Origin: Limisphaerales bacterium
GTDB lineage: Bacteria > Verrucomicrobiota > Verrucomicrobiia > Limisphaerales > AAA164-E04
Assembly (NCBI GenBank): GCA_024761205.1
Contig: JAMASS010000037.1
Coordinates: 1-43,358 of the forward strand
DNA length: 43,358 bases
Direction: 5' to 3'
This document shows positions 6,458 through 32,855 of this stretch, in pieces (position 1 is the first letter of the stretch; each line of letters begins with the position of its first letter). Under the pieces are notes generated by a model, which did no database searches, was not told the origin of the DNA, and saw only the letters and a program-made list of their open reading frames with translations. The translations under genes were made by a program, and so were the position numbers.

Positions 6458-6589
6458 CCGCGAGTTGCCGAAATTCAGGGGTGTTAGGTGTATTTTTGAG
6501 GAATCCATGGTGAGTAAGATTCGTTAAGTCACGTCAAAGTCAGTGGGATGTTAACGGTGGCTGTTCCAAAATTCTTGAGGCCAAAGATT

Positions 6590-8570
6590 CGCTGGGTCGG
6601 AGCCGGTCTAGCTGGGTTAGCAACCGTTTGGCACTGCCGGGATTGATAGCTGGACTTGGACTCGTGGCTGGCCGAAACACTCTGCCGGAATTTCTCGACG
6701 GCAGAGTGCAGCTTACCTTCGGATTCGTCGATGCGGCCCCGAGTAGGTAGAGATCATGGGCGTGGAAATAGGCGCTCGTTTTTCCTGAAGAGCAGTGGAC
6801 TCAAGAACCGCTGTGAGCGGTTGAGTCGCTTTGGATTGGGTCTGAATGATTGATGTCAGGAGATGTCTGGGGCGGTGCGATGAGTGACGAGCTGCCGATC
6901 ACCCGTGTTTCGCGGGTCGTCGCCACTGTAGATATTAAGGGCGTCATGGCCGGCAACGCAGCTTTCGAGGATGTGTTCGATGGTGTCGAGGCGACCGACA
7001 TTTGGTAAGGACCGATAATTTTGAGCGCCACCCAGAGTGCTACTGGTGCCAATTTCGAGACCGAGGGCTTTTTAGGGTTATGATGAAGGAAGAGGGGGAG
7101 GAGTGTTTGGCGTCGTTCGGCAACGATTGCTCGCGTGCTGCTCATTTGGAAACGGTGGTTGGCTTGGAGCGTTCTGTGCTCGTCAGAATCCGCAGCGACG
7201 GAGACGGTGGTTGACGGGTTCTTAACGATCAAAGGCTTCTTCTTTCCGATCAGGCCGAGAGCCTGTGTTGATCTCGGAGAAGCTATTAGAAGAAGGATGA
7301 TGGCCGAGGCACCTAACCAGTGAGCCTTGAGCCTGGCTAGGGGGATCAAGGCGAGATAGCCGAGCGACGTCAGCATCAGAAATCGTTGAATGCCAAGGTG
7401 TGGCAGAACTCCGACGAACAGGATGGGGTAAGAGACGCGCCGAGGAGATTCCAGCTAAGCGGGATCGCGATACTGGTTCGCAGAGCTGCCCATGATTGGA
7501 GGACTTTGGACAGTAGATATCCCATTGCCATCGTCGATGGAAACAAGAAGGGCGCTGGAAACTAGTAGCTCTACTATCAAGAATCCTGTCCGACTCTGGT
7601 TCATGCCGTTCCACAACACTTGATGCCTGTTCGGAACCTGAGCCATGGCATGGAGGATTACGCGGGTCAGGATCGTGGTGATGATTGTCTCATTCCAAAG
7701 AAGATCGTTTTGCTTATCCGCCGACGCCATGCGCAGGTAACGCACCCGAAAGCGTGCCGATAAGATAGATCGTCAGGATGGATGCGTAGGTGTAGGCTGT
7801 ATTCTCCAGTGTCTGGGAGAGGCCCCGGATGCCGAGGACTTGGATATAGGTCATCCCAAGAAATCCCAGTCCGAATGCAGTGGCGAAGATGTGAGCCGAT
7901 TTTCCCTTCCCAGCAGCCGCGTTTGATCGGATATACGAGGCTTGAGAAAGGAAGCGGCCACCTCAGACTGAAGATTGCCAAGGAAATCAGAAGACTTGGC
8001 GAGCACAGGCATCCGAGCGTGGTCTGGGCCTGAGTCCGGGAATCAAGAAAAAGGTCGTGAGGAGAACGCCGATAGTGGCGCCAGCTGTGTTCAATCCGTA
8101 GATCCAGTCAGCACAACGTGTCTCGACCTGGTTTTCTCGCCAAGCCCGTGCAAGGATGGGAAACGTGGTTCCCATCGGAACGGCGGAGGGAAGGCGGCCA
8201 GAACTAGGAGGAGGCCGAGAGTTGACGTTAGCCCTCCGTTGGCGCCGCTGGCTCTGAGGGCAACGATGTCCCTGAGAAAGGGGAGGCCGGAAGAAGGAAA
8301 CCAATCCACAGCAGGCAATGAGTAGTTCGAGGGATGCGAACCAACGAAATGGGATTGAGAAGCCAAGGCATCGCGCGTATTCGATGGCGAGCACTTTGAA
8401 GGTGAGGTCCGTCCAGGTAAGCGATCAGGATCGTTAGAATTGTCGGTGTTTCAAGACCGAACAAGGCGCCTATCTGGCTTTGTCCAAACAATTTGGCAAC
8501 CCAGACTCGCGAAGCCGGAGCCGAAAATTCCGAGCCCTAGCAAAGGTTTGTTAATGTGACCTAGAGCCAT
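6590..8570 (-). pseudogene. Fused MFS / spermidine synthase (aminopropyltransferase-like) pseudogene
   Basis: No single frame is open, but family landmarks appear in order when frames are switched. From ATG 8570: GHINKPLLGLGIFGSGFASL, then IGALFGLETPTILTILIAYL, then LLIACCGLVSFF. Next come PMGTTFPILARAW and IYGLNTAGATIGVLLTTFFL near 8190-8000, and TYIQVLGIRGLSQTLENTAY plus ILTIYLIGTLSGALPA near 7850-7735. The synthase half follows as AIVAERRQTLLPLFLHHNPK near 7110, and a TPR-like tail (LLGRIDESEGKLHSAVEKF) near 6710. This matches the polytopic MFS-like plus spermidine-synthase fusions common in PVC bacteria. At least six frameshifts or stops are needed, so it is clearly dead. Boundaries are approximate. 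Confidence 0.75.
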
Positions 8571-25173: not shown

Positions 25174-25988
25174 TCAGCTGGGCAGAGCTTTATTCATCTC
25201 CGAGCGGCTGATCGTCAGCGACAGCATCAGGGTGGGCGTATTTCCCAGCGTCAGTTTTGAGCTCTCGCAACAGTGCCGCATACATGATTTGTTCGGCGAT
25301 CTCATTGTCCGCCCCTCGATCGTTTTTCCGGAATGTGACTTCAACGCCCATTAACAAGCCGAGGCTCGGAATTGCTTTACGATCGGATGAGACTCTTGGA
25401 TTTGCTTGATTCGTGTCTCAACGAATTGGCTCATCTCGACCACGTTTTGCAGTGCTTGGTGTCGCTCCAGGTAATTGGTTGCGGCCAAGGCTGCGGCGCA
25501 AGCGACCGGGTTCTTCTCGTGAGTGTAGTATCCAAGTGCTCGCTCGCCAGCGACATGGAGTTCACTCTTGGCAATCAGTGCAGCGAAGGGAAAGTTGCCT
25601 CCGCCCAGGCCGTTGCCGATGACAAGCATATCCGGAGCAATGCCATAGTATTCACAAGAGAACACCTTCCCGTTTCGTCCAAGGCAATGAGGAATTTCGT
25701 CGAGGATCAATAGGTCTCTGCGGCGTTCGCACGCGGCTTTGACCAACAATTGGCGGGAGGGATAAAAGGAATGGAGCGAACTGTTTCGGCGATGACGTCC
25801 GCCATATCTCCCTCCTTCTCCAAGACGTAGTCAATATAGTCGGCACACATTAGGTAGGTTGCAGGGCTGGCCACAGTGAAATGGACAACGGGTGGGGCGT
25901 CATGCTCGCATCTCGGCAACAGCGGGACGGCGTTCTGCTGAAAAATCGCTTCTCCACTGAGCGAGATGGTGGTCCAAGGAAGTGTCAT
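25174..25988 (-). pseudogene. Class III PLP-dependent aminotransferase pseudogene
   Basis: Blocks in order across three frames: SGEAIFQQNAVPLLPRCEH, CADYIDYVLEKEGDMADVIA, VRSIPFIPPA, then LLILDEIPHCLGRNGKVFSC and EYYGIAPDMLVIGNGLGGGN, YYTHEKNPVACAAALAATNY, and GLLMGVEVTFRKNDRGADNE near 25340. The class III pattern (LILDEIxxGLGRTG then GKGLGGG) is clear. The PLP lysine of GKGLGGG is Asn here, and at least two frameshifts occur. The N-terminal third is missing. The gene is inactive on two independent grounds. Confidence 0.75.
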
Positions 25989-26431: not shown

Positions 26432-27260
26432 ATGAATCCAGCTGAGTACTCTGCGAAGTTCAAGACCGGCGAATCACCTCCGAGGGACGAGGTGGGCGCA
26501 AGGGCCATACTGTCCACACTGCGGGAGTGGGTGGAAAAGCTACCATTACTCCGATGGGTTGCGGCATCGTTGTGCAGACTGCAAGCGTGTGTTTCGTCTC
26601 ATCACGGGCACTATGTTCGGGAACAGTCCTTGCCCCAGCGGTTTCTTGCTACCTACCTGAAGACCGTCACCGCCAAAAGGGAGCTCCTCTACGCAATTGG
26701 CCCAACACATCCGGGGCACGCAACAGACCGCCTAGTTCATGCTCTCTCGGATTCGCAATGCCACGAGAGGATGCTCCCATGCTGGGCGGGGCGGTTGAGA
26801 TTGATTGAGACCTACATCGGCGGCAGAGGACGCAACAAGCACGGGAATAAACGGACTCGCCATAAATCAAGGTCGCAGCACCAAGACCAAGACTCCCGCC
26901 TTTGGCATCGTCGAGCGCGGTGGTGATGCCCGTGCCTCCAAAGTCAAGTCCGTCAACGGCAATGATGCTGCGCAACGTGGCACTCAGCTCAAATGTGAGT
27001 GCTGATGCGGACCGTGCTTATGGTGCGCTCGATGCCCTTTACAGCATCGCCCGTGTCAACCATAATGCAGGTGAATACGAACTCCGTGGAATCCCTCTGG
27101 GCAATGGTCAAGAGAGTCTACATGGGAACACATCACTGGTGGAGCCACAAGCACATGCAGTTATATCTGGATACCATATGTTTCAGACACAATCGTCCAA
27201 AGTTAAAAAGAACTCGACAAAGGAGCTACCGTGGCTAATTTCATCAAGCAAGCAATGGCA
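26432..27260 (+). mobile_element. IS1595-family transposase pseudogene
   Basis: Pieces of one transposase in several frames: ADCKRVFRLITGTMFGNSPL and PQRFLATYLKTVTAKGISST (zinc-ribbon end and linker), TQQTAWFMLSRI, ETYIGGRGRNKHGNKR (the DETYIGGK catalytic region, first Asp lost), PAFGIVERGGDARASKVKSV, ADADRAYGALDALY (second catalytic Asp region), and ARVNHNAGEY then NTNSVESLWAMVKRVYMGTH (final Glu). At least four frameshifts. It lies immediately upstream of the Dam gene fragment at 27296. Confidence 0.75.
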
Positions 27261-27295
27261 CCACACGCCCGCCTGGAATATCGAGAGCTGTTAGC

Positions 27296-27532
27296 ATGAA
27301 TGTATCAGCTATAGACCCGATGGTGGCACTCGACAAGGCTATCCATGACACGCCCATCGCGTATCTGGACCGCGCACGTGCTTACCCATTCGTCAAGTGG
27401 GCAGGAGGGAAACGCTCACTCATAGCGGAGATACACAAGTGCCTGCCGCATACCTTCGGTGATTATTGGGAGCCATTCGTGGGTGGCGGGGCAGTGTTCT
27501 TTGCACTTGATAATTGTATTTATCGCGTTTAG
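27296..27532 (+). pseudogene. dam: DNA adenine methylase (Dam), N-terminal part cut by inversion
   Basis: The first 76 codons (27296-27524) read as the start of a Dam-family enzyme: [20 protein letters not shown] (the conserved FxKWxGGK SAM-binding start) and [17 protein letters not shown] (motif I, FxGGGAVFF). The codons TGT ATT TAT then pass through a 12-bp repeat, and beyond it the frame ends at a TAG after two unrelated codons. The continuation lies on the minus strand at 28336-27699. Inverting the segment between the repeats fuses the halves in frame ([19 protein letters not shown]) to give 288 residues; E. coli Dam has 278. Dam enzymes methylate adenine, classically in GATC. In the orientation shown no methylase is made. 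Confidence 0.9.
27513..27524 (+). repeat. Left 12-bp inversion repeat
   Basis: ATTGTATTTATC, inside dam codons 73-77. The surrounding GATAATTGTATTTATC is itself an imperfect palindrome (GATAA and TTATC arms), as often seen at recombinase sites. The exact inverse copy lies at 28337-28348. Confidence 0.85.
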
Positions 27533-27695
27533 CTCCTGCCTTCAACCCTGCTTCGTAGCCTTTCTCATAGGCGCAGTATGGGCACTTGTGGCGGCCGGCT
27601 CCACTCTGATTATTGGGCAGATTGCGCATCACCTCCTCTAATCTGACTCGGTGTATGTCGTTCATTTGTCCGCTGTGCTTCCTACAATCGTTCAT
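27525..27695 (-). CDS. Small CPYC zinc-finger-like protein gene within the inverted segment
   Basis: From ATG 27695 the minus strand encodes [20 protein letters not shown], then [20 protein letters not shown] and [25 protein letters not shown] pair follows RHK, suggesting half of a zinc-binding site, with an alanine-rich helix after it. In the present orientation the frame runs on through the repeat into dam antisense (to 27420). In the flipped orientation it would end after about 62 residues, with its stop overlapping the nuclease start. It begins 3 bases after the dam stop, so it looks like the middle gene of a tight operon. Its function is unknown; a regulator or accessory subunit of the R-M system is plausible. 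Confidence 0.65.
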
Positions 27696-27698
27696 GGT

Positions 27699-28336
27699 CT
27701 AACCCGAGATCAGCAACTCTGCGACCTTACCTCGGCCATTGCCATTGCAGTTTATATTCCTCGGAGCGTGGACTTCATGCAGATTCCACTTACTATAGAG
27801 TCTGCGGATAAGAGGCGTGTCATTATTAGAAACGATGACATGCACTCCGGCCTGGCGCCATTTCTCACACGTGGCTTGCAGACGCTTTTGATCAGCCTCA
27901 CCGAAGCCGGCGCCGGTGTAGCCAGTGAAAGTGCCATCGTAGGGCGGGTCGCAGTAGACCAGATCGCCTTCAGCAGGGGTTATCTTGTCAAACTGACTCA
28001 TACGGAGTGTCGCCTTATCCAACACGCTGGAGACGGCCATTAGATTCTTCTCATCGCATATTGTCACCTTGTTGTGGCGGCCTATGGGCACGTTGAATTT
28101 ACCGGCCTTGTTCACTCGGTATAAACCATTGAAGCAGGTTTTATTCAGGTAGATGAACCGTGCAGCCAAGGCTGCGGGGTCCTGTTCGGTGTGATGCTTG
28201 TCTCTGACGCGTGAGTAATACTGTCTATTATGCTTGCGTTCGTGGACTTTCAGCAGGCGGATGACTGCTTCAGGCTTTTGGTGGAGCATCTTGTAGGTGA
28301 GCATCAGTTCGAGATTCACGTCTGAGAGATGTGCTT
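27699..28336 (-). pseudogene. dam: DNA adenine methylase (Dam), C-terminal part, inverted
   Basis: The remaining 211 codons of Dam on the minus strand: AHLSDVNLELMLTYKMLHQK, ALAARFIYLNKTCFNGLYRV (a Dam hallmark: FNGLYR), GKFNVPIGRHNK, and the catalytic GDLVYCDPPYDGTFTGYTGA (DPPY, motif IV) ending KVAELLISG. The coding sequence is undamaged. The frame is open upstream of the repeat only by chance, reading antisense through the nuclease start. Motif I is missing here because it lies on the other side of the inversion, so this half alone cannot bind SAM. Confidence 0.9.
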
Positions 28337-28348
28337 GATAAATACAAT
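28337..28348 (-). repeat. Right 12-bp inversion repeat
   Basis: GATAAATACAAT on the plus strand, the exact reverse complement of 27513-27524. It lies just upstream of the nuclease ATG at 28354, so after inversion the last codons of the small CPYC gene would run through it. Confidence 0.85.
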
Positions 28349-28353
28349 AACTG

Positions 28354-28818
28354 ATGACTACCCCGGCAGGCACAGGAGCGAATCGCTCCGGCGGACGGCT
28401 GGAAATGTTTGCCGCTGACATACTGGATGAGCATAATTACTTTGAAGTCATTCCAGTCAGGTTCTTCCCGGCAAGGGCAATGGAGCAGCCCCTCTTTGCC
28501 CGGCAATGTAAGGTTGGAAAGGACATCTATGGCAAGACCAAACGAGTGGACGTGATACTCTACCACCCTCGCCTGTGGAAAAATTGCCTGGTCATCCAAT
28601 CCAAATGGCAGTCATCACACGGGAGTGTAGAGGAAAAGTATCCCTTCGAGGTCTTGTCCATCGCCCAGAATGACTTTGACACAATCATCATCCTAGATGG
28701 CGGCGGCTATACGGACGGAGCTAAACAGTGGATAATAAACCAATCCGGCCAGAATCACTTAAAACATGTCTTTAACCAAGGCGAGTTCTCCCGCTTCGCC
28801 AGCCACGGCAGGATTTAG
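28354..28818 (+). CDS. PD-(D/E)XK-type nuclease, probable restriction partner of Dam
   Basis: 154 residues, intact. The N-terminus TGANRSGGRLEMFAADILDE is typical of small restriction-like nucleases. KRVDVILYHP gives a catalytic Asp (Asp66), followed by CLVIQSKWQSSHG, a beta strand with Gln82-Ser-Lys84 in the (D/E)xK position, and VEEKYPFEV. That is a PD-(D/E)XK variant with Gln in place of the acidic residue, a change known in several restriction enzymes. It has its own ATG, but its translation would be coupled to the small CPYC gene by a TGATG overlap in the flipped orientation. Here it is cut off from the operon promoter. Recognition of GATC is suggested only by the Dam partner. Confidence 0.65.
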   Translation: MTTPAGTGANRSGGRLEMFAADILDEHNYFEVIPVRFFPARAMEQPLFARQCKVGKDIYGKTKRVDVILYHPRLWKNCLVIQSKWQSSHGSVEEKYPFEVLSIAQNDFDTIIILDGGGYTDGAKQWIINQSGQNHLKHVFNQGEFSRFASHGRI

Positions 28819-29875
28819 GTCGTCAAGTGGGTAATTCCCCTTCTGAAAAGGTGCAGCAGGAACTTGTGCAGGAGGTCAGGGAAACGATTGTGCCAATCCA
28901 GAACAAGATGGAATTGGGTGATAAGAAGATCGATGTTTCGGCTATCGTGCGAAAGACTGCCGAGATGCGCATTTAGAAGTCCATCGACATTCCGAAGATC
29001 ACGGTTGTCCCTTCAGACGACCATGAAGGCTGTTACAGTCGTTCCGGTTGGATTTGACGGGAGTGAATTTCCAGCCCGTCTCGGAGAAGATTTTGCTTCA
29101 GCAATTAAGCAACCATAAACGCTGCACAATGAAGCAGGGAACTGTGATTTTTGAGAAAGCGCGACTTGAGGATTATATCGTTCATGGCCTGATCGACTTT
29201 AATGATATTTCCTACGATAACTATGCTGGACTGCTCTACGAGCTCGCTGAACAGGTCGTTGCCCACCTGCACGGTTATCTCAAGGACGAGGAGAAGCCCG
29301 CAAACGTGCTCCGGTATCATCAGCAAGACTTGGTGAATCGCGTGCATACACAGATGCAGTCGCACTACATTGAATCGGCAACATCCTATTCTGTTGACGT
29401 TACGAAGGGCTCCTACTCCCCGGGGGACATGAACTGCTCAATAGGCGGAGGTGAGAAGTGGCGCAATTTCCGAGAAGCCTTGTCGGAGGGCCAGAAAAAC
29501 AGGATCAAATCCATGATTTTCACCGGTTTTGAAAAATGCCTTTAGGAGGCGCAAAAATTCGACTCTGATTCAGAGTGCCGGTTCGCAGTGCTCCCGGAGA
29601 ATGACAAGAACATTGACAAGTGGTTCAAGCCAGCCAGAGGCGAAATCCGTATCTGCTACAGCCCCGACCGTGGATATATGCCGGATTTCGTGGTGGAGGC
29701 CGAAAACACTTGCTATCTCTGCGAACCCAAGCGCTCAAACCGAGATGCAGATGAGGAGGTTCAAGCGAAGTCCGCCACTGTTAAATGGTGCGAGTACTCG
29801 TCAAAACATGCAACGGAACATGGTGGGAAACCTTGGAAATACCCGCTGATTGCCCACGACTCCATTACCGAGTAA
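28819..29875 (+). pseudogene. Type III restriction enzyme Res subunit, C-terminal remnant
   Basis: Plus-strand frames carry the C-terminal region of a Res subunit: EKVQQELVQEVRETIVPIQN, KKIDVSAIVRKTAEMRI, TAG at 28974, KSIDIPKITVVPSDDHEG, a frameshift near 29040, then LTGVNFQPVSEKILLQQLSN and EDYIVHGLIDFNDISYDNYA. A second TAG at 29543 precedes KFDSDSECRFAVLPENDKNI. The nuclease domain is recognisable: YMPDFVVEAENTCYLCEPKR (Asp...ExK). The helicase motifs and the Mod partner are absent. Intact enzymes translocate on DNA and cut when two sites interact. Two nonsense codons and a frameshift show it is dead. Confidence 0.8.
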
Positions 29876-30075: not shown

Positions 30076-30813
30076 TTACGGACATTCTAATGAGATCGAT
30101 GAAATTTTCCCTGCGAGGTTGATCGCAAATCGCCTTGCGCTCGTTAACTCGCTTAAATCGCTCCACCGCGGTGACATCTGTTGAGGCGTCATTACGAGAG
30201 CGACGGCGTCGTATAGCTGCTCTTGAACAAGCCTTCTGCACAAAATCTCGTAACGGTTTGCATAGCCCGTGTTCCGGAATTCCGGAAAGATAGGGAAGTG
30301 CGGCGAACTAATCTTCCGGCGCTTTCTTGAGTCTGGGCAATCTTCAAGGACAAAGAAATAGCCTACAAAAGGCTTCATCGACTCAAGGAAAGCTTCTTCT
30401 CTGAACGCTTCTTTGATGTCAGATGCATTACCGAGAGCCTCTTCGACACGATTGTTGAAATTATTTCCGAATGAAGGGCCAACTTGAGATTTAAACTCGA
30501 TCGCAGCGATTAGTTGGTTTTTCCTGACTATTAAAAGGTCCCAATTTTTTGTAGGTCTGAAATATCCTGGAATGGTCAACATTTTTCTTCCATCTGTAAA
30601 TACGTCAAAATCGGAGAGGCCATTTGCGATAATTAGTTCTCTAACTAGATCACGGAACCCATCTAGATTTTTTCCAGCGGTCACGTTCGCTCGATTTCCC
30701 TGGTCAATGGTTCCTTTGGCTTTTTGGTTCTTCGCCGCCAATTCCCGAGCCGCCCAGAAGTGCTCAATGGCTTTTGGCATCAACCTTTCAAATGGCTCTA
30801 TTGACGCGCTCAT
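30076..30813 (-). CDS. PaeR7I/XhoI-family type II restriction endonuclease
   Basis: 245 residues, intact. The PaeR7I-family core is clear: YFRPTKNWDLLIVRKNQLIA then AIEFKSQVGPSFGNNFNNRV, giving catalytic Asp92, Glu106 and Lys108 (PD-(D/E)XK), followed by EEALGNASDI and FVGYFFVLEDCP. Members such as PaeR7I and XhoI recognise CTCGAG, so that is the expected target. Its ATG overlaps the methylase stop by 4 bases (30810-30813), so the two genes are translationally coupled with the methylase first, which favours protection before cutting. No separate controller gene was seen. Confidence 0.9.
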   Translation of the reverse strand: MSASIEPFERLMPKAIEHFWAARELAAKNQKAKGTIDQGNRANVTAGKNLDGFRDLVRELIIANGLSDFDVFTDGRKMLTIPGYFRPTKNWDLLIVRKNQLIAAIEFKSQVGPSFGNNFNNRVEEALGNASDIKEAFREEAFLESMKPFVGYFFVLEDCPDSRKRRKISSPHFPIFPEFRNTGYANRYEILCRRLVQEQLYDAVALVMTPQQMSPRWSDLSELTSARRFAINLAGKISSISLECP

Positions 30814-32537
30814 GGGATGGAACCCTCCAAAGCACTTCTTTCTGTGTTGCTGAGGCCAAGGAGTTTAGCGACAATAGCGCTAGAGGATTTGGAATCGAGT
30901 GCGATCGCGGCATCTCGTAGTCTACTGCGGCAAGGTTGGTCGAGTGAATTCCACCATGGTATTCGAATTCTACGAAGATGCTGAGCTTGGTAGCGCAGAT
31001 AGCCGCCTCGCATCTTTGTGGTGTAAGCACCGACGAACAACCGTGCCAGGCCAGACAATAGCACGGCTTGGAGGACTCGAAGGTCCCATGTCGTGGATGT
31101 AATGAAGTAGAAGTTGTGGTGAGGGTAGAGACCCAGGTCCTCATAGACAATTGTTGCTTCTCCTCGAATATCGGGAATCAAGAGCTTCGGAACTGTTGCT
31201 AACTGTGGATAGATACGATCAATGGTGCGATACCAATTCTTCGCGTTCCTTTTTGCAACGTTTCGTCCCTTGATTGCTAGTTCATGATCTCGAAAAAATT
31301 TGGCCATTCTCGGAAATTTATCAAAGGCGGCCAAGCTTCCGTTTTCAAGAAACGGATTTACGATCCCGGTTCCCGTCCATTGGATGCTTCCATTTTTTAT
31401 GTCTCGCGTGACGGCAAGCTTAAGTTTTCTACCCGGTTCAACAGCCAGGCTTGCGAACGGCTGGGTGTAAATTCTATCTGCGCCGGTCGCAACACCAATT
31501 CGGACTTCGGCACCTGCTTGTTCCACCAAGGGAAGCTCAGATTCAAGCCTTCGCACTAAGTTGGTCGTTGGATCTGTGTTCAATATCCATGGAGCTCCAT
31601 TTCGGTCAACGCCTTCGATTTCCTGAATATGAGCGGTATTCGCTAGTGATTTGGCCTTTATCTCCTTTACGAGATTGCGCAGCTCGCTCAGGTTTCTGTC
31701 AAGCTTTGCGATCCGTGTACGTGTGCCTTTTGCACGTTTGATAACCGCAACCGAGGGGTAAGCAGAAACCTCTTGGTGAAAAGCATCGGCGTCTGTCATC
31801 GAAATGTAGTGCTCAAGGTGATAATCCCGAGATATCAGCTCACGAAGTGGGCGTCCGTATTTGTTCTTTGTCCACCTGTCCGCGCAAATGAATCCGAGTA
31901 GTCCATTTTTACCGAGCAGCGAGAGGGACTTCTCTGTGAATGCAACGTATAGGTCCGCTCTGTCGCACATCGTGAGGAAGCGTTTGCGGTATTCTTTAAG
32001 GAGAACATTGGGGATAGCCTCTTGCCTGACATACGGAGGATTCCCTACCACGAAATCGAACGACGAGGAGTTCAAGTCACTAAACAGGAAATCACCACAC
32101 TGGAGCCAAGCATCCACTATTGAGCGAGCGTTATGATTCGAAAACCCTGCTTCTTCCAATCTGTTAAGAAGCTTGAGTTTGACGTGTTCAAATGAATCAC
32201 GGTGGAGTTCCACTGCCCGAATCGAGCTTTTCAGGAGGTCGAGGGTCTCAGATTTAATAGTTGGAGGATCGAAATCTTGCGTGAATTTCTTCAGGAGGCG
32301 GTTCACGATCTCGACTAGAAACTCTCCATGACCAAATGATGGTTCGAGGATCCGTTTGAGGTATAATTCTTTCTGTGATGTGTAGCCGACGAGACTCAGG
32401 ATGAAGCAAACAACTTCACGTTTCGTGAATATCGCTCCTCTGTCTTCTTGGCCAGAAGAAGACAAACGGTCTAGTGCATGGGCAATAGGTTCAAACTCTT
32501 CAGGTTTTAACAAGTCAGGGATATTCGTCATGGGCAT
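30810..32537 (-). CDS. N6-adenine DNA methyltransferase of the PaeR7I/XhoI type
   Basis: 575 residues from the ATG at 32537 (MPMTNIPDLLKPEEF); the frame opens to 32615, but the upstream residues look unlike the family. SAM motif I is ILEPSFGHGEFL and the catalytic motif IV is FDFVVGNPPYVRQEA (NPPY), the gamma-class order with the target-recognition domain C-terminal. Downstream elements WYRTIDRIYPQL and KLLIPDIRGEATIVYEDLGL match M.PaeR7I-type enzymes. It should methylate adenine in CTCGAG and protect the chromosome from the coupled nuclease. The frame is intact. Confidence 0.9.
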   Translation of the reverse strand: MPMTNIPDLLKPEEFEPIAHALDRLSSSGQEDRGAIFTKREVVCFILSLVGYTSQKELYLKRILEPSFGHGEFLVEIVNRLLKKFTQDFDPPTIKSETLDLLKSSIRAVELHRDSFEHVKLKLLNRLEEAGFSNHNARSIVDAWLQCGDFLFSDLNSSSFDFVVGNPPYVRQEAIPNVLLKEYRKRFLTMCDRADLYVAFTEKSLSLLGKNGLLGFICADRWTKNKYGRPLRELISRDYHLEHYISMTDADAFHQEVSAYPSVAVIKRAKGTRTRIAKLDRNLSELRNLVKEIKAKSLANTAHIQEIEGVDRNGAPWILNTDPTTNLVRRLESELPLVEQAGAEVRIGVATGADRIYTQPFASLAVEPGRKLKLAVTRDIKNGSIQWTGTGIVNPFLENGSLAAFDKFPRMAKFFRDHELAIKGRNVAKRNAKNWYRTIDRIYPQLATVPKLLIPDIRGEATIVYEDLGLYPHHNFYFITSTTWDLRVLQAVLLSGLARLFVGAYTTKMRGGYLRYQAQHLRRIRIPWWNSLDQPCRSRLRDAAIALDSKSSSAIVAKLLGLSNTERSALEGSIP

Positions 32538-32855
32538 GTCGTGCCGTGTGTCCGTGAATTGATTATTGGTTTGTTTTGTGGTGGCGAAGAACTCAAGGGA
32601 GTTTAGGTATCTCAATACTGAAATTCAAGGCTGAGCATGCATGGGCGATTGGTCAATCTGTTCAGTCGTTTCTGACATCGCCCCCAGGAGGGCGAAGCCC
32701 AAAGCACAATTACTGAGGAAAGAGATGTATCTTTTGGGTGTGAGCAACTCAAGCAGTGCAATGAACGACGATATATGGCAGATGATTTTGGATTGGCGAG
32801 AGCTTAGGTTTGCTGCTGTTCAATGTCCAGTATCAGTCGTATGGTTGCGGAACTC

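Follow-up and report, generated by a model that had tools for sequence, protein, structure and literature searches.

Genes and features at the locus

The window, a stretch of 43,358 nucleotides from a Limisphaerales bacterium, contains an open nuclease gene preceded by the remains of a methylase and a transposase. In the order of their positions, the features are:

26472-27296, plus strand: remnants of an IS1595-family transposase, frameshifted, upstream of the Dam-type methylase and reading towards it (tblastn)
27296-27532, plus strand: N-terminal part of the Dam-type methylase, ending at the inversion point (TIGR00571 positions 2-47/48)
27513-27524, plus strand: 12-bp inverted repeat, left copy (ATTGTATTTATC), an inversion breakpoint (from the sequence)
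27513-27695, minus strand: small ORF with a CPYC motif within the inverted segment (no Pfam match)
27705-28361, minus strand: remainder of the methylase, inverted, with the motifs NKTCFNGLYRVN and DPPY (TIGR00571, PF02086)
28337-28348, minus strand: 12-bp inverted repeat, right copy, reading GATAAATACAAT on the plus strand (from the sequence)
28354-28818, plus strand: nuclease of the family PDDEXK_11 with D66...Q82xK84, ORF intact (ORF, Pfam, alignment, model)
28818-28839, minus strand: right terminal inverted repeat (GGGAATTACCCACTTGACGACC on the minus strand), sharing one base with the nuclease gene, the last of its stop codon (similar to the repeats of the relatives L046 and L045)

An earlier, sequence-only reading had described a broken Dam methylase. 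The profile TIGR00571 indeed places the N-terminal part of this gene on the plus strand and the rest on the minus strand. The inverted piece covers profile positions 39-266 with about 212 bits (211.7-212.6; cut-off 114.85) and matches Pfam PF02086 with an E-value of 3.7e-43; at the family level, the name is right. The 0.8-kb inverted segment is bounded by exact inverted copies of the 12-mer. Its small CPYC ORF was not detected in the relatives examined, and a search of viral contigs gave no relatives of it. The transposase remnants were matched in tblastn by the transposases of L046 and L045 (E-values 1.3e-34 and 5e-17); with Pfam PF12762 they score 19.6 bits, which is below the cut-off of 27.

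Right behind the terminal repeat, at 28820-29875, a type III restriction subunit is left with its C-terminal portion only, itself broken; PADLOC reports REase_III on two ORFs at 29048-29875. Positions 30076-32615 (minus strand) hold an XhoI-type nuclease (PF04555, E-value 3e-77) and an Eco57I-type methylase, which are uninterrupted and have overlapping ORFs. Upstream of the element, a fragment of a class III aminotransferase is located at 25351-25749 on the minus strand (PF00202, positions 216-341 of 403).

The nuclease and its predicted fold

For the nuclease, the sequence-only reading had proposed a variant PD-(D/E)XK enzyme of 154 residues with an intact ORF and an active site D66...Q82-S-K84 in place of ExK, and each of these points agrees with our results. 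The frame at 28354-28818 is open over 154 amino acids and contains D66, Q82, and K84. Its product (P0001) belongs to Pfam family PF20472, PDDEXK_11, with 79.1 bits (cut-off 23.7) and an E-value of 3.7e-22; because this match is well over the cut-off, the frame is not a chance ORF. The acidic residue of the family's (D/E)xK motif is absent, its place being taken by glutamine. At E-values up to 1, PDDEXK_11 was the sole Pfam match, and no Mrr catalytic-domain profile appeared.

An AlphaFold2 model built from 24 family members (an earlier one from six sequences was poor, pLDDT 67.8) reached a mean pLDDT of 92.2 and a pTM of 0.86. It shows an alpha-beta3-alpha-beta core, in which D66 is located on strand 62-71 and Q82 and K84 on strand 75-85. 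According to this model, the window nuclease has a confidently predicted PD-(D/E)XK core with the three residues at catalytic positions. The top structural match (VIA-align 2) was BstEII (PDB code 9ibq) with a Z-score of 10.5 and an rmsd of 3.7 for 136 aligned residues; the fold is shared at 10% identity over the aligned part, which implies no common specificity. With Foldseek, nothing reached an E-value of 0.001, the best match to the model being a Cas4 chain at 4.9e-3, and a sequence search of the PDB gave nothing significant (best E-value 0.76). NCBIfam contained no match for the protein, PADLOC none for it or for four relatives, and PHROGs none for it, L046, or L081; L050 had one weak PHROGs match.

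Gene order and boundaries in relatives

One scan of bacterial and archaeal species genomes resulted in seven loci, five of full length and two fragments. The five full-length nuclease relatives are 55-58% identical and stem from Chloroflexota (L043, L045), Rhodobacteraceae (L044, L046), and Poribacteria (L047). In all five, the nuclease gene is immediately preceded, on its own strand, by a gene for a Dam-type methylase, which overlaps it or stops within a few bases of it; the methylase gene of L044 is itself split over two frames. The pairing of nuclease and Dam, as put forward in the sequence-only reading, is therefore borne out by each full-length relative from the species genomes. An intact IS1595-family transposase gene precedes and overlaps the Dam gene in L045 and L046, a partial one precedes it in L047, and none was detected in L043 and L044. 

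A scan of IMG/VR contigs added 18 loci. Seven of these (L080-L086, with L081 and L082 being one and the same element) have the order transposase, Dam, nuclease, and five (L089, L093, L094, L095, L097) have Dam and nuclease without a detected transposase; no Dam gene was detected in the remaining six, namely L087 and L088, which are both cut by the contig start, and L090, L091, L092, and L096. Adjacent genes for a methyltransferase and an endonuclease are thus present in 5/5 full-length species-genome relatives and at 12/18 IMG/VR loci. All five transposases scanned (L045, L046, L080, L083, L086) match both PF12762 and PF12760 above cut-off. A tblastn search of plasmids and phages with the nuclease gave no match.

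Terminal inverted repeats of 23-27 bp were found just outside the genes in six distinct elements, and Dam and nuclease are enclosed by them in every case:

L045, 2186-4726
L046, 91-2414
L080, 2142-4469
L081/L082, 2148-4463
L083, 2077-4745
L084, 2032-4463

The repeat match exceeds the best of 60 shuffles in all six. An 8-bp target duplication is the rule in the IS1595 family; five of the elements are flanked by an exact one (ATAGTTTT, AAAAAAGA, TAAACAAT, CTTATTTT, and ATTGTTTA), and L081/L082 has the terminal repeats and no 8-bp duplication. Terminal repeats were also sought in L085, L086, L047, and L089, where none were found. The sequence-only reading had treated nuclease and Dam without a transposon; in the relatives, the pair is cargo between IS1595-family terminal repeats. 

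Inspection of the left ends by eye, without a control, revealed a TTG-type -35-like box inside the left repeat and a -10-like box 16-17 bases on in L045, L046, L082, L083, and L084, and a similar pair just inward of the repeat in L080. Since such boxes occur in six left ends, a promoter is likely at this end of the elements.

Several side observations concern individual loci. Two Chloroflexota loci have a cysteine-rich ORF of 72-78 amino acids without Pfam match after the nuclease (L043, 4462-4698; L045, 4485-4703), which in L045 is also enclosed by the terminal repeats. The Rhodobacteraceae MAG of L046 contains C-terminal remnants of the nuclease at L048 (4106-4267) and L049 (4001-4096); because L049 retains the right terminal repeat (22/23), the element is present in this MAG in several copies. 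At L057 (407-2843, minus strand), three genes adjoin that encode a Dam, a PDDEXK_11 protein whose motif is ExK, and a nuclease of the DpnII type, which makes two nucleases and one GATC-type methylase.

In a sample of the phylum, 9 of 387 genomes contain PDDEXK_11; among the eleven genomes of the family, the nuclease was found in the window's own and in no other. A nuclease family that needs no methylase partner had been named in advance as the finding that would speak against the pairing. Among close relatives nothing of this kind was seen; in the wider Pfam family, L055 and L056 are members without a detected Dam. Both have a serine in place of Glu/Gln, and their N-termini look, by eye, like signal peptides (L055, 1381-1902; L056, 1264-1905).

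Remains of the element and further copies in the same genome

The 22-mer right repeat of the window recurs identically on contig C37 and with one mismatch on C73. Allowing up to three mismatches, these are its only occurrences in the 95.1% complete genome, and all three lie at nuclease ends. A search for the left repeat near the transposase start gave 13/22 matches at best, compared with a shuffle mean of 12 and a maximum of 16. Because the left end is missing, a target duplication cannot be read in the window. 

Contigs C37 and C73 have exactly 127 terminal bases in common; the same is true of C52 and C70, which hold the start of the nuclease. We read these overlaps as the trace of an assembler collapsing a repeat at k = 127, so that the genome contains at least two further copies of the nuclease. 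A second unit of transposase, Dam, and nuclease on C34 is more diverged and decayed, with stops; element fragments were detected on C4, C9, C25, C50, and C65, and elsewhere on C34.

The window element is dead: its left end is undetectable, its transposase is shattered, and its methylase is split, with the nuclease ORF intact. Taken together with the relatives, the window nuclease is very probably the restriction half of a decayed restriction-modification pair, which was the cargo of an IS1595-family transposon.

Glutamine and glutamate in the catalytic motif

The sequence-only reading was correct in that the QxK variant is real, and it is conserved; it is not private to the window protein and is usual across the nearest clade. 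Among 24 aligned family members, seven (window, L043-L047, L080) have Gln and 17 have Glu; the latter comprise five transposon-borne proteins (L081, L083-L086) and 12 further ones. The alignment leaves out L082 (identical to L081), L087 (cut), L055-L057, L091, L096, and L097; the motif has Glu in L057 and L091, and in L097 an arginine replaces the lysine. A tree of 29 rows, which is weak (5/25 inner branches starred), groups the seven Gln rows in one clade with support 85/92, together with L087 and L081/L082 (Glu). Gln is thus found in 7/8 distinct full-length members of this clade, L087 being cut before the motif.

A glutamine at the (D/E)xK position has been described for the Mrr-like catalytic site and for the BisI family, whose Gln-x-Lys in the catalytic strand the window protein resembles. 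The nuclease could accordingly be a modification-dependent enzyme of the Mrr/BisI PD-QXK kind that cuts Dam-methylated DNA, with Dam travelling along for another reason. The retention of Gln in seven proteins would fit, as would L057, where a PDDEXK_11 protein beside both Dam and a DpnII-type nuclease need not be Dam's partner. We consider this very improbable: relatives with the identical transposon arrangement (L081, L083-L086) have Glu, the window protein lacks a match to the Mrr profile, and a nuclease that attacks Dam-methylated sites would, with a Dam gene at its side, be fatal to its host.

The inverted segment and a shared breakpoint core

Seven junctions were inspected, and all carry the core AAATAC:

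window, 27513-27524 and 28337-28348
C70 (L026), 126-142, 6511-6520, and 7334-7343
C38 (L027), near 967-974
C52 (L028), near 128-153

Five of the seven carry the full ATAAATAC, and the left and right arms are exchanged in constant orientation. Three pieces of the element occur apart or flipped in the genome, namely the transposase with the N-terminal part of Dam, the C-terminal part of Dam with the small ORF, and the nuclease. In addition, the gene block at 45-7420 of C70, which lies between two AAATAC sites, is turned relative to parB when compared with the congener G006 (L075). The block runs from a DUF309-like to an altronate-dehydratase-like gene and has element pieces at both ends; in the congener G008, the DUF309-like gene adjoins parB and a cstA-like gene is found elsewhere. 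These three gene names are readings of the translations and not results of a family search. In both congeners, ATAAATAC was not found between the DUF309-like gene and parB.

One candidate explanation of the site was rejected, and another found no support. As an abundant repeat, ATAAATAC would have to be frequent; it occurs eight times in 249 kb, compared with about five times for 8-mers of the same composition, and five of the eight occurrences are at junctions. A family of palindromic recombination sites is not apparent either, the 8-6-8 palindrome at the Dam breakpoint having 18 genomic matches and its reversed control 16. Shared descent of a first break, recombination at the site, or an assembly error would each fit the common junctions. 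That some kind of conservative recombination at ATAAATAC cuts and rejoins the elements is a rather unlikely proposal; were it correct, restriction-modification genes would be reshuffled at a fixed short site, by a recombinase or by some cut-and-rejoin activity.

The 0.8-kb segment might also be regarded as a phase-variation switch, in which inversion between the exact 12-bp repeats at its ends toggles the methylase; this segment, ends included, is found again on C70. The assembly, however, contains the window inversion in a single orientation only, the transposase is already broken, turning off the methylase while the nuclease is active should kill the cell, and the palindrome count given above hardly exceeds that of its control. 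A switch is therefore very improbable, and we keep to the remains of a transposon-borne restriction-modification pair.

Specificity and expression

DpnIIA and E. coli Dam are GATC enzymes. Compared with solved structures, the Dam protein of L046 is closest to DpnIIA (2dpm, E-value 6e-65), followed by E. coli Dam (about 1e-35). The motif NKTC[FY]NGLYRVN..G.FNVP, which we take to overlap the residues by which E. coli Dam contacts GATC, is conserved in the methylases of 12/12 loci (L043-L047, L080-L086) and in the inverted piece of the window. Given the closeness to DpnIIA, GATC is the best guess for the target of the pair, as judged from the methylase sequence.

The sampled sequence shows no clear depletion of GATC (0.90). 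The only other uninterrupted full-length Dam-family gene of the genome lies on C72, all remaining matches being fragments or containing a stop. It is part of an EcoRV-type restriction-modification pair (L074, 3948-5602) of a D12 methylase and a PF09233 endonuclease; because of the adjoining EcoRV-type endonuclease, this methylase is probably for GATATC. As no protection is evident any more, a cell could hardly tolerate a GATC nuclease that is both active and expressed. Most simply, the window nuclease is either not expressed or not active, and it is probably silent. A promoter scan over 27200-28900 found two candidates, where 1.6 were expected. The sequence-only reading had suggested that the gene is silent in this orientation, which is plausible; it is likelier that the nuclease is silenced by the loss of the left end, at which intact relatives have promoter-like boxes ahead of the transposase, rather than by the inversion itself.

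Discussion

An intact copy of the element consists of repeat, transposase, methylase, nuclease, and repeat, with coding genes that overlap or lie close together. The transposase would insert this unit of 2.3-2.7 kb and thereby produce the 8-bp duplication. The methylase would protect its own sites, GATC being the best guess, and the nuclease would cut unprotected ones, which may defend the cell and may also penalise loss of the transposon, a form of selfish maintenance. That the window contains an ordinary chromosomal type II pair beside an unrelated, decayed insertion sequence is hardly credible, although the same phylum has PDDEXK_11 nucleases with an adjacent Dam and no match to the transposase probe (L051-L054, L057): in the relatives, the pair is enclosed by terminal repeats and 8-bp duplications, and in the window the right repeat directly adjoins the stop codon of the nuclease gene. 

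Passenger genes, perhaps including methylases, occur in some members of the IS1595 family. In structure, the transposon-borne pair corresponds to the cargo of a tIS of the IS1595 type; judged by its genes, it is a restriction-modification pair of type II. The tIS elements with passenger genes that are described in PMC5704250 and PMC7986276 (tISCpe8, MTnSag1/tISSag10) likewise combine an IS1595-type transposase, terminal inverted repeats, and extra genes between the repeats; in contrast to tISCpe8, whose cargo is lincomycin resistance according to a reference title, the cargo here is a methylase-nuclease pair. For ISApl4, 8-base sequences are tabulated per copy in PMC12561309. Movement of restriction-modification genes with insertion sequences is also documented, as PMC3031569 reports for a PaeR7I experiment and for composite elements; in those systems the genes are outside, next to, or between insertion sequences, whereas here they are inside one unit element. 

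With GATC systems of the DpnII/MboI type, the element shares a methylase closest to DpnIIA. The nuclease differs, being PDDEXK_11 and not Pfam DpnII; a DpnII-type nuclease stands beside the pair only in L057. In the literature searched, within the parts available and with the founding IS1595 paper outside its scope, we found no IS1595 element with a methylase-nuclease pair. Passenger genes of insertion sequences and the linkage of restriction-modification genes to them are known; the pair inside one IS1595 unit appears to be new. This claim is a modest one, because key IS1595 papers lie outside that literature and prior notice is possible.

A complete methylase-nuclease pair in a unit transposon of 2.3-2.7 kb would be a very small, self-contained mobile unit of defence (or addiction), and it occurs in three named bacterial phyla besides the genome of the window. 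Among otherwise alike transposons, it offers a natural swap of Glu and Gln at a catalytic position. Such a small unit can be synthesised, which makes two questions accessible to tests: whether the restriction pair lends stability to the transposon that carries it, and how, after arrival of the pair in a new host, methylation gets ahead of cutting by the nuclease.
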